Of a stretch of DNA of 64,000 nucleotides, positions 12,368-46,825 are shown one piece after another. Each line of letters begins with the position of its first letter. Position 1 is the stretch's first letter. Position numbers and translations under genes: made by a program. The DNA comes from an uncultured Muribaculaceae bacterium (GTDB lineage: Bacteria; Bacteroidota; Bacteroidia; Bacteroidales; Muribaculaceae), in assembly GCA_947628305.1 (NCBI GenBank), contig CANQZG010000008.1, positions 62,001 to 126,000 on the forward strand. Direction: 5' to 3'. The notes under the pieces are model-generated. The model searched no databases. It was not told where the DNA came from and saw nothing but the letters and a program-made list of their open reading frames with translations.

Positions 12368-12574
12368 ATGGAAGGCAAGCAGAATAACGTCAAGACCATG
12401 CGCATCGACGCGTTCGCAAAGCGGATCGGCGTCAGCTGTCAGACGCTTCGCCGGTGGGACGCACAAGGGCTGTTGAAGCCCGCGTACGTATTTCCGTCGG
12501 GACAGCGCCGGTATACGGAGCAACAGGTAACGGAATACATAGAAGCGTGCAAAAAGAAAGCCGAAAAGAGCTGA
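12368..12574 (+). CDS. MerR/excisionase-like helix-turn-helix protein
   Basis: 'MRIDAFAKRIGVSCQTLRRWDAQGLLKPAYVFPSGQRRYTEQQV'. Confidence 0.8.
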   Translation: MEGKQNNVKTMRIDAFAKRIGVSCQTLRRWDAQGLLKPAYVFPSGQRRYTEQQVTEYIEACKKKAEKS

Positions 12575-12592: not shown

Positions 12593-14257
12593 ATGGCAAG
12601 AACAAGAGACGCTACCATTCGGGAAGTCACGCAGACATATCTGTCCGCATTGGATACGGCGAACCCGCCCGACGAAACGGTCGTCGCGGCGGACTTACTG
12701 GAACAAGTCAACGCGGTGCTGGAAATCGAGAACGCGTCGCGCCCCAGAGGACAGAAATGGCAGTTGCTGACGGCGCTTACGGCGGCGCAGATCGCGGACA
12801 TCATTATGGCGTGCTATCACGTCGTTAATATCGACATGCTCGCTGCGTCCGGCGGCAGAGCCATGACGGACCAGACGCTGCTCGCGTATTACGCGCCGAG
12901 CGGGGAGTCCGAGGGGATTTATGTTTCCGACGAAGCGAAGTTCCGGCAGATCGCGAAAGCATATTCGTATAATATCACGGAGCGGGACTTGGCGCGGGTC
13001 ATGCAGATCCTGCACGACGAGTCGCCTGTCGTGAAGCGCACGGATAATCGCGACTTCGTTCCTCTCGCGAACGGGGTGTTCGATTACGCGTCGAAAACGC
13101 TTCTGCCGTTTTCGCCGGAATACGTCTTTATTGCGAAGGCGGCGGTCGGCTACAATCCGCTTGCGGTCAATCCGACGCTACATAACGCCGACGACGGAAC
13201 GGATTGGGACGTCGAAAGCTGGATGCAGGGTCTGTCGGACGATCCGAACGTCGTGGAACTGCTGTGGAAGCTCATTGGCGCCACGCTGCGACCGTTCGTC
13301 TCATGGAATAAAGCCGCATGGTTTTATTCCGAGACCGGAAACAACGGGAAAGGGACGCTGTGCGCGTTGATGAAGAATATTCTCGGTGAGAAAGCGTATA
13401 CATCCATTCCGCTGTCGGATTTCTCGAAGGAGTTTATTCTCGAAGGTCTGACGCGGGTATCGGCGATCATCACGGACGAGAACGACGTGGGCGTGTTCAT
13501 TGACAAAGCAGCGAACCTGAAGGCGATCATCACAGGGGACAGCATTCTGATCAATCGAAAGTTCAAAAATTCCGTTTCGTATATGTTCCGCGGCATGATG
13601 GTGCAGTGCGTCAACGAGCTGCCCCGCGTCAAGGATAAGTCCGAGTCGTTTTACAGGCGGCAGCTGGTGGTTCCGTTCTCGAAATGCTTCACGGGGCAGG
13701 AGCGGAAGTATATCAAGGACGAGTATCTGCGCAGGCAGGACGTGCTGGAATACGTCGTGGCAAAGGTGCTGAATATGGATTACTATGACTTGCCCGAACC
13801 GGCGGCATGCGTCAGGCTGTTGTCCGAGTATCGCGAGTACAACGATCCTGTCAGGCAATTCGTCAGCGACGTGTTCCCGCAGTTGCGCTGGGATCTGCTT
13901 CCGTATACGTTCCTGTATGATCTATATAAGGCATGGTTCCGGGAGGCGTCGCCGTCCGGGCAGATGCAGGGACGGAATACGTTCGTGATGGACCTGATGC
14001 ATGCATTACACGGAAATTCGTCGTGGGCATGCGGCAGTCCACAGGCGAAGATCCGGTCGAAGGACCGCATGAACGGTCCGGAGCCGTTGATCGCACGGTA
14101 CAATCTGAAGGAATGGTTCAATCCGAATTACGCCGGACATGATACGGATAAGTTGTGTCTGCCGCCGTTACGGGATAATTACGCGGGAGTGCAGCGCGTC
14201 GTGCCGTCAGGGCTGTATATCGCAGCAAGCGATGAAGACGACGAAGAAGAAGGGTAG
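12593..14257 (+). CDS. Phage/plasmid P4-type (D5/SF3) replicative helicase
   Basis: 'AWFYSETGNNGKGTLCALMKNILGEKAYTSIPLSDFSKEF' Walker A, 'IITDEND', 'FKNSVSYMFRGMMVQCVNELPRVKDKSESFYRR'. Confidence 0.85.
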   Translation: MARTRDATIREVTQTYLSALDTANPPDETVVAADLLEQVNAVLEIENASRPRGQKWQLLTALTAAQIADIIMACYHVVNIDMLAASGGRAMTDQTLLAYYAPSGESEGIYVSDEAKFRQIAKAYSYNITERDLARVMQILHDESPVVKRTDNRDFVPLANGVFDYASKTLLPFSPEYVFIAKAAVGYNPLAVNPTLHNADDGTDWDVESWMQGLSDDPNVVELLWKLIGATLRPFVSWNKAAWFYSETGNNGKGTLCALMKNILGEKAYTSIPLSDFSKEFILEGLTRVSAIITDENDVGVFIDKAANLKAIITGDSILINRKFKNSVSYMFRGMMVQCVNELPRVKDKSESFYRRQLVVPFSKCFTGQERKYIKDEYLRRQDVLEYVVAKVLNMDYYDLPEPAACVRLLSEYREYNDPVRQFVSDVFPQLRWDLLPYTFLYDLYKAWFREASPSGQMQGRNTFVMDLMHALHGNSSWACGSPQAKIRSKDRMNGPEPLIARYNLKEWFNPNYAGHDTDKLCLPPLRDNYAGVQRVVPSGLYIAASDEDDEEEG

Positions 14258-14311: not shown

Positions 14312-14898
14312 TGTACCTTTTTTCGGAACGCCGCTGTACCTCTTTGTACCTTTTTTGGAGAATCGTTGTACCTTTTTTTTCTGTTTGGGCGTGCATGCGG
14401 TTCTGCAAAAAAGAGACTTGTACCTTTTTTCAAAAAAAAAAAGGTACAGACAAAATCGTTGTCTCCCAAGGGTTTTTGGTGAAAAAAAAGGGCTTGTACC
14501 TTTTGTACCTTTTTTTTTCAAACCCATATATATGTGCGTGTGCGTGTGCGGGGGCGCGTGCTTATATTATATGATTTAATAATAGATATTATGAATCGCG
14601 TGTGCATGCGCACATGAGGTGTAACTCTAAAAAAAAAGGTACAAAAGGTACATACAGTATTTTTTAGAAAAAAATATAGATATACCAAGGCTTTTTGACA
14701 CCTTTTTTTTGTACCTTTTCGTGAAATCAAAAAAGGTACAAAAGGTACAAAAGGTACAGACGGTACTTTTTCAGAGGTATGTTGTACCTTTTTTATGAAA
14801 AAAAAAAAGTACAGACGGTACTTTTTTATGCGTATGTTGTACCTTTTTTGTGAAAAAGGTACAGACGAAATCGTTGTCTCCCAAGGGTTTTTTGGGGT
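14312..14898. repeat. Iteron-like array of TGTACC/GGTACA hexamers embedded in T/A tracts
   Basis: 17 exact hexamers by eye (10 TGTACC, 7 GGTACA) in 14312-14863, some at 9-bp period (aaaaggtacaaaaggtacaaaaggtaca). Confidence 0.85.
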
Positions 14899-23880: not shown

Positions 23881-23909
23881 TTGACTTTTCACGCGGTCCG
23901 TGCTATAAT
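23881..23909 (+). promoter_or_regulatory. SigmaA-type promoter
   Basis: ttgact-17-tataat, overlaps the ORF-track N-terminus of the RNAP ORF. Confidence 0.75.
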
Positions 23910-24042
23910 AGAAGCAAGAAAGAAAAACCATCTTCCTTGCGTCGGCGGACGCGTACGGGCTTGTGTTTTCAAGTTGGTTCTCTTTACGCCGGAGCGCACG
24001 GAAGGTACGCTCCGGTTCGTTTTGTATAGGGGGAGAAATCGC

Positions 24043-27000
24043 ATGAGCGTTACGTTGCGCTATTTCAATGAGTACGTCTATTACAGAGCCGTAACGAATT
24101 TAGGAAAATACCGTGCGGAAAACGGCGGGGAGCCGTTGACGACGTCGCAGGCGCGCGCGTTGCGCACGGCTGTCGGGAAAGCTCTTGAACAAAATTCCGT
24201 GACGGTCGCCACGGCGAACAAGACGGCGATGTTCTCGGCGCTTCGCGAAGCGTTCGGTCCGGACGGCGCGTCGGCGTTTACCGACGCGGATTATACGGAT
24301 GCCGTCGGGACGTTTTCCCGGTTTACCGGCATCGCGTCCGCTTCGGGATCTCGCGACGGGGCGACGACGTTCGCGGACCCCGTCGTTCCGCTGTCGCCGT
24401 ACGACCCCGCGCATGCGCTCCGGGACGCGTTCATGCGGAACGGATCGCAGTTGCTTTTCGCGAGACGCGGCGATATTATGACCGACAGGCAGACGCCTGC
24501 CGAGATCGATCCGTCGACGGTCCCGCTGCAGACGGCTCGCGGACTGCAGACCGCGAACGGACACGATCCGTGGAGCACGCGTCTGCGTTTGCTTTCGTCT
24601 GCGGATAAGTCCGGCGCGTCAATGCTTGCGCCGTATATGTCGCAGGAAGAGTACGAGACGGCGTCTGCGTGGATGGAACGCGCCGGGGAAGACGACGAGA
24701 CGAAATTCATGTCCCTTCAGGCGCTTCGGAAGAGCGCCGGACTGCTTCGCCTGATGAAGGAAAACGGAATCTCTTATGAGATCCTCGCCGACGATAATCC
24801 CGGACAGCTGCGCGCCCGCATCACGGGGACGCGCACCAGCGTCCGCATCGCGGATACGCGGGATAACGAAGCGTATATCGGACGCGTATACGATAACGGG
24901 ATCGTGTATCGGTATATGACGAATAAGCCTGTCGCGCAAGACGTGCGGTTGACCGAAGGGTATACGCCGCGGAATGCACAGGAGTGTTTTGATTTGCTGC
25001 AATACGCGATGGGGCATTCGGTGCGCCGCTGGGACGACAGCGCGAACGTCGGCGAAGCGACGGACGTCCTGTCGCGCCGTCAGCGCTGGACGAACGGCGA
25101 GAAGCGCTTTGCGTCCGTGCGTGTGAATCAGTCTTACCATTCGGCACAGAACGCGTCGTATTTCATCGGCGCTCTGCCGTCGAACGAGCGCTACAGCGTT
25201 TTGCTTCATGCGGATTATCAGCGCGGGCGCGAGCTGGTCCATTTCAGTACCCCGTCCGCCGCGGAACAGTATCTGAAGGACGCCGTGTCGTCGGCGCGGG
25301 ATGCGTTCGCACAGGATGTGCGGCTGGACGAGTTGATCGCCGCGGCGGCGGAGCATAAAGACGATGAAGATTACGCGTTTGATTTCAGCGGCGACGAGGT
25401 CGTCGCGTCCGTACAGAGGGGTTACTGGGATATTCTGACCTCGAAGGAACCGCTGGAGGTGTATCACCCCGGCGCGAAGTATGATGCGTATCTGGAAGGG
25501 CTGGACGAGAGCGACGACGACGTCGCCGAGGCGGTATCGCTGCGTGATGTTCCGACTTATGAGGGAACGCCCGAGGAGAAGGTCCGTCAGCACATGGCGG
25601 ATAATCTGGATTATTTCATCGGTACGTTTGAGCCGGACGCGGAAGGTCTGCGGTTCGATCCGACGCGCGTCAGTCAGTATATGTCGTCGGCATACAGCAT
25701 GTTCTCGAATGAGCGGAACATGATCCGCGTGCTCCGCGCGTGCGATATTCCTGCCGAAGCATTGCGCGGGAATCATTACTACACGTCATACGTCAAGGAT
25801 AATCTGATCAAGTTCGACCCGTCGACGGCTTTGCCGATGTGCAAGTCGGAGAGTCCGTTTGTAAAGCGGACGTTTGAGAAGATCGCCTCAACGATCCGTG
25901 AGTCCGGCTGCGAGCTGGACGACGAGGCGGTACTGATGGATGCACAGGGCATCGTGCATTATACCGCGAGCAGGATCACCGGGCGGAACGTGACGGACAG
26001 CAAGGGGAATCCGAATAAGAAGACGTTCGAGGGGGAAATCGGTCAGGTGTTTATTCCCCGAGAGGACGGTATGATCGAGACGCAGTTTGCCGGTACGGAT
26101 AATTACTTGTTCGTGCCGGGATACGAAGCGTCGGTCGTGACCGGCGCGTCTACCGCCGGACAGACGCTGGAGCAAAGGACACGTCTGCGCGGGTATGAAC
26201 AGATCCTGCACGACGAGATCGCGCACACGCTCCGCGGCGACCTGATGCTGACGGACGCCGAGGTCGGTTCGCCCGCCGTGCTGAACAGCACGTACCGGCA
26301 CATGTACGGCGAACGGCATCCGCTGGATTGGGTCGAGCAGACGACGGAAGAGGGCATGGACGACGCGCTGCGCAACGCAATTATTCAGACCGAGGCGCGT
26401 CGCGTGAAGTACGACGGCATGTTCCGCGAAGGGTCTACGGTCAACGCGGACTATCGTGCGAACCAGTATGCGCAACCGGGCGACATCATCAACGATAACT
26501 TCTATAGCGCCTACGACGCGTCCGGGCGGCGCAATATGGCGTTGCTTTCGGAGGAAGGCAACGGGTATTTCGATAAGACGATGACCTCTTCGGGCATGGA
26601 GCAGGGCATGACGCGGTATCTGTGCGAAGGCACGGAAGTATTGCCCGACGGGTCGATGAAGCCGTCCGATAAGGGCGACGCCGTGCCGTTGATGAAGCAT
26701 GACGCGTTCCGTTTTGCCGAGTTCGATCCGTGGGATCGTCTGTTGATGACGTCTATGAACGCCATCAAGGCGTCAAGCATCACGAAGCCGTCGAAGGTCG
26801 CGCTGGTGACGTTGGACGGGCTGAACAGCAACGACGGGTTCATCGTCAGCAGTGCGTTCGCGGAAGCGAATCAGATCCGTTTGCCGAACGGATTGATCCG
26901 TCCGTTGCAGAAAGGCGATAAGATCTCGGATATGCATGGCAACAAGGGCGTCATTTCCGTGGTCGTCGATCCGGAAATGGACCCCGAGGAGGCGAAGGAG

Positions 27001-44625: not shown

Positions 44626-45851
44626 GATCGTTCTCCTTTGATTTGTTGCCAGTAGGCTTTGAGCCGCTGTTCGGTGCTGTTGGCGCCGAACGCGTAGTAC
44701 TGTTTGTTTTTCAAGTCGTCGGGCAGGTATTGCTGGGCGACCCATGCGTTCGGAAAGTCGTGCGGGTACAGGTATCCTTTGAAGAGCGGACTGCGCAGGT
44801 GCGTCGGGATGTTGACGCCCAGTCCGGCTTTGATGTCCGCTTCGACCTTTCCGTACGCGATATGCGTGCTGTTGGACTTCGGCGCGGTCGCGAGGAACAC
44901 GGCGGCGTGTCCGAGCGGGATCGCCGCTTCGGGCATGCCCAGTTGCTTTGCCGCTTCCGTGCATGCATAGGTGATCAGCGGCGCCTGCGGCATCGCCATG
45001 CCGACGTCCTCGCTTGCGATGACGAGCAGGCGTCTGCAGGCGGACAGGATGTCGCCTCCCAGCAGAAGCCGTGCGAGGTAGTATAAGGCACCGTCCGGGT
45101 CGGACCCGCGGATGGACTTCTGCAGTCCGCCGAGCAGGTCGTAATGGACGTCCGCGTCGGCGTCGAAGCCGAGTCCGCGACCTGTCGGAGCGAGTGCGTT
45201 CAGGTCGTTTGTTGTAAAGCAGAACGGCTCCGGCATCTCGCGTATCTTGTCGATGATAAGTTCGAGCAGGTTGACGGCGGAACGGACGTCTCCGGCGGCG
45301 GCGCGGGCGATGCGCGGCAGGACTTCCGGGTCGAGCTGCTCGTCGCGGATGTTTTGCGCGGCGGTTATGTCGTGCAGGCGTGCGGCGATAGAGGCTTTGT
45401 CGACGGACTTGAACGCAAAGGTGTAGCATCGCGAACGAAGGGCGTCTTGGCAGCAGAACCACGGGTTATCCGTGGTGGATGCAATCAGCAGGATGCTGCC
45501 GTCTTCGACAAAGGGAAGCAGGCTTTGCTGCTGTTTCTTGTTGAAGTATTGAATCTCGTCCAGATAGACCAGAACGGTTTCGCCTTTATGATCGGCGACG
45601 GCTTGCTTGATGTCCGTGACGCCGTTTTCAATGGCGTTCATTTTGCGGATGGGCATACCGGCAGCGTCTGCTATCAGACAGGCGGCGGTAGTCTTGCCGC
45701 ATCCGGGCGGTCCGTAGAAGATCATGGACGAGAGTTTTCCGCTGTTCAGCATGCGGCGGACGATCCCGTCCGGACCGAATAGGTGTTCCTGCCCGACGAG
45801 TTCGTCGAAGGTTTTCGGGCGCACGGCGTCCGCGAGCGGCTGTCGTATCAT
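44622..45851 (-). CDS. rarA: RarA/MgsA-like replication-associated AAA+ ATPase
   Basis: 'PLADAVRPKTFDELVGQEHLFGPDGIVRRMLNSGKLSSMIFYGPPGCGKTTAACLIA', 'ASTTDNPWFCCQDALRSRC'. Confidence 0.85.
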   Translation of the reverse strand: MIRQPLADAVRPKTFDELVGQEHLFGPDGIVRRMLNSGKLSSMIFYGPPGCGKTTAACLIADAAGMPIRKMNAIENGVTDIKQAVADHKGETVLVYLDEIQYFNKKQQQSLLPFVEDGSILLIASTTDNPWFCCQDALRSRCYTFAFKSVDKASIAARLHDITAAQNIRDEQLDPEVLPRIARAAAGDVRSAVNLLELIIDKIREMPEPFCFTTNDLNALAPTGRGLGFDADADVHYDLLGGLQKSIRGSDPDGALYYLARLLLGGDILSACRRLLVIASEDVGMAMPQAPLITYACTEAAKQLGMPEAAIPLGHAAVFLATAPKSNSTHIAYGKVEADIKAGLGVNIPTHLRSPLFKGYLYPHDFPNAWVAQQYLPDDLKNKQYYAFGANSTEQRLKAYWQQIKGERS

Positions 45852-46825
45852 GCTTTACCGCCTCCTTTCGTTTCTGCTTGTTTGTCGATTTCTGCCTGTT
45901 CGTTGCGTGCGACGCATGTTTTTGTCTCCGACAATAGATACGGAAGTCCGTTGCGTATCTCGTCGTGCTTCGATCTGTGCGGCAGCGTCTGTTTGACGGC
46001 TTCGTATAGAAGCCATATCTTGTCGTTCGCCGTGTACTTGTCCTTTTGATTTCGCGTCAGGTATTTCAGACGTGCGTACAGGTAGCCGATGACGCCAAAC
46101 TCATAGGTCGACATGTCGTTGTGGAAATCCGCCGGGGTCCTCTTGTAGGTTTTTCCGTAGGTGACAAGGTTGCGAATGAGGGCGTCTTTGATGGGTTCCG
46201 CGACGTTCGGACCGAATTTCGCAAGGTCGACGGCGACGGCGTGCACTTCTTTTGCTTGTGCCGCCAGTTCGTAAAAGAGTTCGTCGAAGCTCTCGGCGCC
46301 GTTTGGGTTCGACGGCGGATCGAGCATGTTGACGGTAAAGATGCTGTAATGATTCAACAGGATCTCATACCATCGGTGTTCTTCTTTGAGCGCCGGTTTC
46401 TGCATCGCCGCGCTGTAGTCGAGATAATGCTTCGGCAACGGGAACAGCAGATGGATCCCTTTGCCGGACGACGATCGTTCGCCGTACAGGTACGGCATTT
46501 TCAGCAGTCGCTGGCGAACATCGTCGGGACATGTCTTTTCGATGTCAAGGATGCAGAATTTTGTTTCGACGGCTTTGCAGTAGTAAGTCAGCGGCAGTGA
46601 CAAGTGACTATAGACAGGACGATCAAGTAATATGTTTGCTCTTTGTGCGATTTCCGACAGGGAGCACAGCGAGCGTTCGTCTTGATATTTTGCGCCGCAT
46701 GGCTTTGTGTCACTGAATAACAGGCGCCGCATGTCCATGGGCTTCTTGTCTTTTGCGTCGGAAACCGTCCAGCGTCGGTTATCGGCAATGCTTGGGATAA
46801 ACGGTTGGTCAAGAATGTTCGGCAT
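45848..46825 (-). CDS. Archaeo-eukaryotic-type (AEP) primase/polymerase-like protein
   Basis: 'WTVSDAKDKKPMDMR', 'FCILDIEKTC', 'GERSSSGKGIHLLFPLP', 'RWYEILLNHYSIFTVN' match the order of AEP motifs. Confidence 0.6.
   Translation of the reverse strand: MPNILDQPFIPSIADNRRWTVSDAKDKKPMDMRRLLFSDTKPCGAKYQDERSLCSLSEIAQRANILLDRPVYSHLSLPLTYYCKAVETKFCILDIEKTCPDDVRQRLLKMPYLYGERSSSGKGIHLLFPLPKHYLDYSAAMQKPALKEEHRWYEILLNHYSIFTVNMLDPPSNPNGAESFDELFYELAAQAKEVHAVAVDLAKFGPNVAEPIKDALIRNLVTYGKTYKRTPADFHNDMSTYEFGVIGYLYARLKYLTRNQKDKYTANDKIWLLYEAVKQTLPHRSKHDEIRNGLPYLLSETKTCVARNEQAEIDKQAETKGGGKA

Follow-up and report, generated by a model that had tools for sequence, protein, structure and literature searches.

What does the dense array of short repeats directly behind a helicase gene in the window (the whole 64,000-nucleotide stretch of DNA analyzed here) do, and what kind of element carries it? 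The initial annotation had described 17 exact TGTACC/GGTACA hexamers in about 550 bp downstream of a P4/D5-type helicase gene and interpreted them as iterons of a replication origin. Comparative analysis supports that reading, as the helicase is of the P4 family with a SaPI5-like fold and has relatives that keep the same layout with other repeat words. The array is very probably a plasmid origin at which the adjacent helicase would initiate replication and melt the core, and an AEP-type primase of the plasmid would start synthesis. Judged by its sequence features, it would be an origin of an already known kind, the P4/SaPI-type iteron origin.

The iteron array

The following features make up the array.

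14312 to 14513, plus strand: left iteron cluster, with seven copies of TGTACCTTTT on the plus strand and one on the minus strand
14514 to 14637, no strand (iteron-free interval counted from 14510): iteron-free core between the clusters, the sole long iteron-free interval, in which alternating GT/GC tracts flank an AT-rich stretch
About 14562 to 14596, no strand: AT-rich stretch inside the iteron-free interval, candidate unwinding element
14638 to 14863, minus strand: right iteron cluster, with six copies on the minus strand and three on the plus strand

A recount again gave 17 exact hexamers, at 14312-14863 (552 bp), the first of them 55 bp past the helicase stop (gene end 14257). Ten read TGTACC and seven GGTACA on the plus strand, and five additional sites have one mismatch. 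The fusion to T or A tracts reported earlier holds for every copy, since T(T/C)TT follows all 17 hexamers when each is read on its own strand, and the 9-bp tandem register was located in three groups (14495/14504, 14638/14647, and 14735/14744/14753). The left cluster is mostly TGTACC and the right mostly GGTACA, which gives two opposed clusters around the AT-rich core. Hence, two features of P4/SaPI-type iteron origins are present, namely bidirectional short repeats beside a helicase gene and an AT-rich region between iteron sets.

The whole window contains 32 hexamers against 11.7 expected, a count reached by none of 100 shuffles, and the 15 copies outside the array are near chance. Markov models fitted to the sequence of the array yielded a mean of 0.30 and a maximum of 3 copies (order 1) or a mean of 3.5 and a maximum of 11 copies (order 2), compared with the 17 real ones. 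In the 3.67-Mb genome, 16 of the 20 copies of the word AAAAGGTACA sit in the array; the generic repeat at many loci, which the initial annotation had named as evidence against an origin, was therefore not found. An ordinary terminator or low-complexity intergenic DNA with T-tracts could be suspected, as the region holds five terminator-like matches versus 1.5 expected, but no shuffle reaches the 17 identical six-base cores in both orientations and relatives retain the layout while the word changes, so that this explanation is hardly credible. No known RNA was detected by Rfam over window positions 1-24000, and an exact search of viral contigs for a two-iteron pattern returned no match.

The adjacent helicase and its HTH neighbor

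Two genes precede the array.

12368 to 12574, plus strand: small MerR-type HTH protein (Pfam MerR_1, E 1.3e-9) preceding the helicase, possible accessory factor or regulator
12593 to 14257, plus strand: SF3/P4-family initiator-type helicase with DUF5906 and Pox_D5 (TIGR01613, PF19263, PF03288), presumed iteron-binding initiator

The helicase passes the P4-family threshold of NCBIfam TIGR01613 (184.4 bits, cut-off 108.7), and its Walker A, Walker B, and RR motifs are intact (GNNGKGT, ITDEND, and FYRRQ). It matches PDB 7OLA at E 1.2e-53. An AlphaFold model (pLDDT 88.5) was compared by Foldseek, with E 1.5e-33 for 7OM0 and TMt values up to 0.86 for the 7OLA chains; the nearest solved structure and fold is that of the SaPI5 primase-helicase (7OLA/7OM0).

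In the proposed mechanism, this helicase would act as the initiator at the array. Its C-terminal region would bind the TGTACCTTTT iterons in both opposed clusters, on which two oligomeric rings are probably assembled; the rings would melt the AT-rich core and then load as the replicative helicase, and a plasmid-encoded AEP-type primase would begin synthesis. The candidate gene for the latter is as follows.

45848 to 46825, minus strand: putative AEP-type primase of the plasmid backbone, a motif-level assignment; kept in a Streptomyces plasmid (W1), Gordonia pGKT2 (W2), and contigs G113 and G119

Its product had no match in Pfam, PHROG, or NCBIfam, and the putative AEP type is assigned purely from motifs and backbone conservation.

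The initial annotation had also proposed the HTH protein as a binder of the repeats. It stays a candidate, but ranks below the helicase because some arrays have no such gene beside them. Homologues precede the helicases of the second module on the same contig (described below), L112, and L021, whereas none was found beside the L111 and Streptomyces helicases, and these arrays lacking an HTH gene rule it out as a general iteron binder. The array might still be an operator through which the HTH protein controls the neighboring operon, given that its gene is adjacent here and recurs before related helicases. This is quite improbable, as the L111 and Streptomyces arrays have no linked homologue, L021 has the HTH gene yet no array within 6 kb, and 17 sites across 550 bp behind an operon would be unusual.

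The probable carrier plasmid

The window lies in contig C8 (150,958 bp), which is not closed. C8 encodes a MobL relaxase, VirD4 and VirB4-like proteins (named by homology to annotated plasmid genes and by inspection), a ParM-like protein, an AEP-like protein, and a 1904-aa fused RNA polymerase. Much of this backbone is common to Gordonia pGKT2, a 639-kb Streptomyces plasmid, a Rhodococcus plasmid, and contigs G113 and G119. Because of this shared backbone, the element behind the incomplete contig is most likely a large mobilizable plasmid, while an integrated state of C8 is possible. The element is thus such a plasmid rather than a P4-like satellite, and it has a second helicase-plus-array module. 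In the Streptomyces plasmid, pGKT2, and G113, VirD4 and the RNA polymerase gene (or the gene corresponding to it) are neighbors; in C8, about 16.7 kb, including the HTH gene, helicase gene, and array, sits between the two.

Other observations concern these two flanking genes. The VirD4-type coupling gene is in three pieces (C8:60580-61980, just before the window, and window 1540-1707 and 5914-7122). Its interruptions hold three paralogous homing-endonuclease-like ORFs (42-1313, 1718-2875, and 3353-4528), and the only Rfam hit near the pieces is a weak group I intron match at 4966-5331. The VirD4 gene of G119 is likewise split. The 1904-aa protein, encoded at window 23881-29595, carries beta- and beta'-type RNA polymerase signatures and is conserved in the Gordonia, Rhodococcus, and Streptomyces plasmids.

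A role of the array in partition, as an alpS/parC-like centromere to which a ParR/AlpA-type adaptor binds, would agree with the ParM-like gene and RHH proteins of C8 and with the alpAC homologues of the related pGKT2 (PMC4446434). However, the ParM gene (C8:10506-11723) is 65 kb from the array (C8:76312), unlike the adjacency of ParMRC and AlpAC systems, and related arrays are found at a helicase or RecJ locus and not at ParM; we consider a centromere very improbable.

The GC-skew check recommended by the initial annotation was performed over C8 and pGKT2, and the sign switch of a chromosome-like bidirectional origin was not seen at the array. In C8, G113, and G119, the skew is one-signed, and in pGKT2, which is a complete circle, it is almost so. 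As this uniformity means that the skew cannot place an origin, it was dropped as an origin marker; a one-signed skew would fit one-way replication. In both C8 and pGKT2, the GC skew holds its sign along nearly the entire length whichever strand is coding, whereas the AT skew of C8 tracks the coding strand.

A second helicase-array module on the same contig

C8 carries a second helicase gene (C8:8297-9952), the product of which is 53% identical to the window helicase, with an HTH gene in front and a TGTGCC array upstream. The two helicases are sisters in trees (support 98/92 and 96/96), and alternative pairings are disfavored (window helicase with L112, AU p 0.035; C8 paralogue with L111, AU p 0.006). 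Their C-terminal regions are the least conserved part, with an identity of 0.34 versus 0.72 in the core. The two arrays differ in iteron word and are homologous outside the iterons, in a 16-bp segment of the AT-rich stretch (14566-14581) that is identical in both, in the elements listed here, and in other segments.

14453 to 14471, plus strand: non-iteron segment AAATCGTTGTCTCCCAAGG, copy 1, also in the array of the C8 paralogue
14669 to 14696, plus strand: TATACCAAGGCTTTTT element, 14 of 15 positions in the array of the C8 paralogue and 15 of 15 in L116
14867 to 14893, plus strand: non-iteron segment AAATCGTTGTCTCCCAAGG, copy 2, 26 of 27 positions identical to the array of the C8 paralogue

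A duplication of the HTH-helicase-array unit, after which the iteron words split (TGTACCTTTT and GGCACACTTTT) and left one replicon with two replication systems that do not interfere with each other, has about an even chance of being correct. In G113, a single helicase is accompanied by two arrays of the same word, in C8 two helicases by two words; the single word of G113 fits a helicase that sets the word. For the two helicases (L111 and L112) of the 251-kb element G119, the larger tree gives a sister relationship (91/96) that the smaller one does not resolve, and a clear bidirectional array is present at L111 only. By these trees the G119 pair are probably sisters, which would mean an independent duplication.

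The two arrays of G113 also bear on whether the window array is an accessory iteron region that is bound by the helicase, such as the crr of phage P4 or an incompatibility or copy-control region, with the working origin elsewhere. Indeed, crr occupies exactly this position in P4, lying 46 bp past the alpha gene, and the P4 ori is elsewhere. On the other hand, a second TGTACC cluster is absent from the 151-kb contig, itself incomplete, and the opposed clusters of the array enclose an AT-rich core of their own. An accessory role is thus unlikely, and the origin reading is preferred.

Arrays beside related helicases

Relatives were gathered by protein search, and arrays were sought by a motif-blind k-mer scan with shuffles, plus inspection. 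Phage P4 served as a positive control for the cluster scan, which ranked crr and ori as its top two clusters. For about 15 related helicases of other elements, a bidirectional iteron array is present, either close to the helicase gene or elsewhere on the plasmid. The array words differ by element.

C8 paralogue: TGTGCC
L020: TGTATCA
L023 and G113: TGTAACG
L024: TGTGTCACG
L027/L028: TGTGTACC
L034: TGTCCG
L041: TGTGGCA
L012: TGTACCACG
L038: TGTACCG
L018: TGTCGTACT
L017: TGTGACT
L111: TGTACCA
L116: TGTAGTA
L114: GTTCCC, which departs from the TGT form
L113: perhaps TTTCGC, which departs from the TGT form

Nearly all words start with TGT, often with a T-tract, although register and TGT form were picked post hoc, after the words had been seen. 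Opposed clusters flanking an AT-rich core were also found at L018, L020, L023, L024, L034, L111, L114, and L116. The position of the array relative to the helicase gene varies from just downstream to about 0.3-2.5 kb upstream or, in G113, 22 kb off.

In the k-mer scan, the helicase-linked bidirectional arrays of L020, L023, L024, L027, L034, L012, L018, and the window beat all shuffles, L024 and L027 exceeding the strictest one by one copy. L028, L002, and L041 merely equal the strictest shuffle and L017 is below it; these four therefore rest on layout. Five related replicons (1.41 Mb) contain 12 bidirectional word clusters, of which 4 are no more than 1.5 kb from one of the seven helicase genes; the helicase-near DNA is a 2.3% share (P 1.3e-4 at a threshold of 8 copies, 1.8e-4 at 7, and 1.1e-2 at 9). 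No clear bidirectional array was found within about 5 kb of the helicase at L019, L021, L025, L031, L013, or L112.

Several candidates were discarded. The clusters at L030 and L026 have repeats in one orientation. Two candidates for a second element common to the arrays were also set aside: TATACCAAGG(G/C)TTTT is strong at three loci (the window, L116, and the C8 paralogue), with borderline signals at L020 and L024 and no significance at the others, and GTTG-N5-CAA is confined to the window, L114, and the C8 paralogue. Further repeats were noted at L038 8410-8785, where a dense ACTGACG/CGTCAGT cluster (17-19 copies) lies 0.75 kb downstream of the Gordonia helicase with the upstream TGTACCG array, and in G119 (L121-L133 joined), with a TTACACT/AGTGTAA cluster at 109050-109500, at a distance of 19 kb from helicase 1, and, ahead of the HTH gene of helicase 2, six direct repeats of AAACCTT at 217784-217940.

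Implications

For a family of large mobilizable plasmids with their own fused RNA polymerase, known from Clostridia and Actinobacteria, the array offers a specific origin candidate. The duplicated and diverged origin-initiator pair on one plasmid is of more interest than the array itself; if true, the C8 duplication is a natural record of how initiator/iteron specificity splits. About 15 helicase-iteron pairs with differing words are available, including one paralogous pair on the same plasmid, and domain swaps can therefore be used to test how SF3 initiators read and change iterons.

Comparison with known systems

The closest backbones are those of Gordonia pGKT2 and the Streptomyces sp. NBC_01454 megaplasmid, which share with C8 the helicase, MobL, VirD4, VirB4-like protein, fused RNA polymerase, ParM, and AEP-like protein. 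Unlike C8, each has a single helicase. The Streptomyces megaplasmid has a TGTACCACG array 0.5 kb before the helicase gene; near the pGKT2 helicase, no array comparable to that of C8 was found.

Phage P4 resembles the locus in its TGT-type 8-bp repeats (type-1 repeat, TGTTCACC) in both orientations and in a crr just downstream of the helicase gene. It differs in that alpha is a primase-helicase fusion and two regions, ori and crr, use one type-1 word, whereas C8, as far as the contig is known, has a single array for each word. In SCCmec, the C-terminal domain of the Cch2 helicase binds short direct repeats downstream of its own gene, a putative origin (PMC7581432); the repeats are likewise behind the helicase gene, but they are three AAGTG iterons compared with 17 copies of TGTACCTTTT here.

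In SaPIs, the origin has been described as following the helicase gene directly on its downstream side (Ubeda et al. 2007, as cited in PMC7581432). The window shares with SaPIs the helicase family and fold and a short-iteron origin, here a candidate, directly behind the helicase gene. SaPIs are phage satellites, whereas the element here is a large mobilizable plasmid, which has an iteron word of its own that includes a T-tract (the words of SaPIs being outside this comparison), a putative AEP gene set apart from the helicase gene by about 31 kb, and a second, paralogous module.
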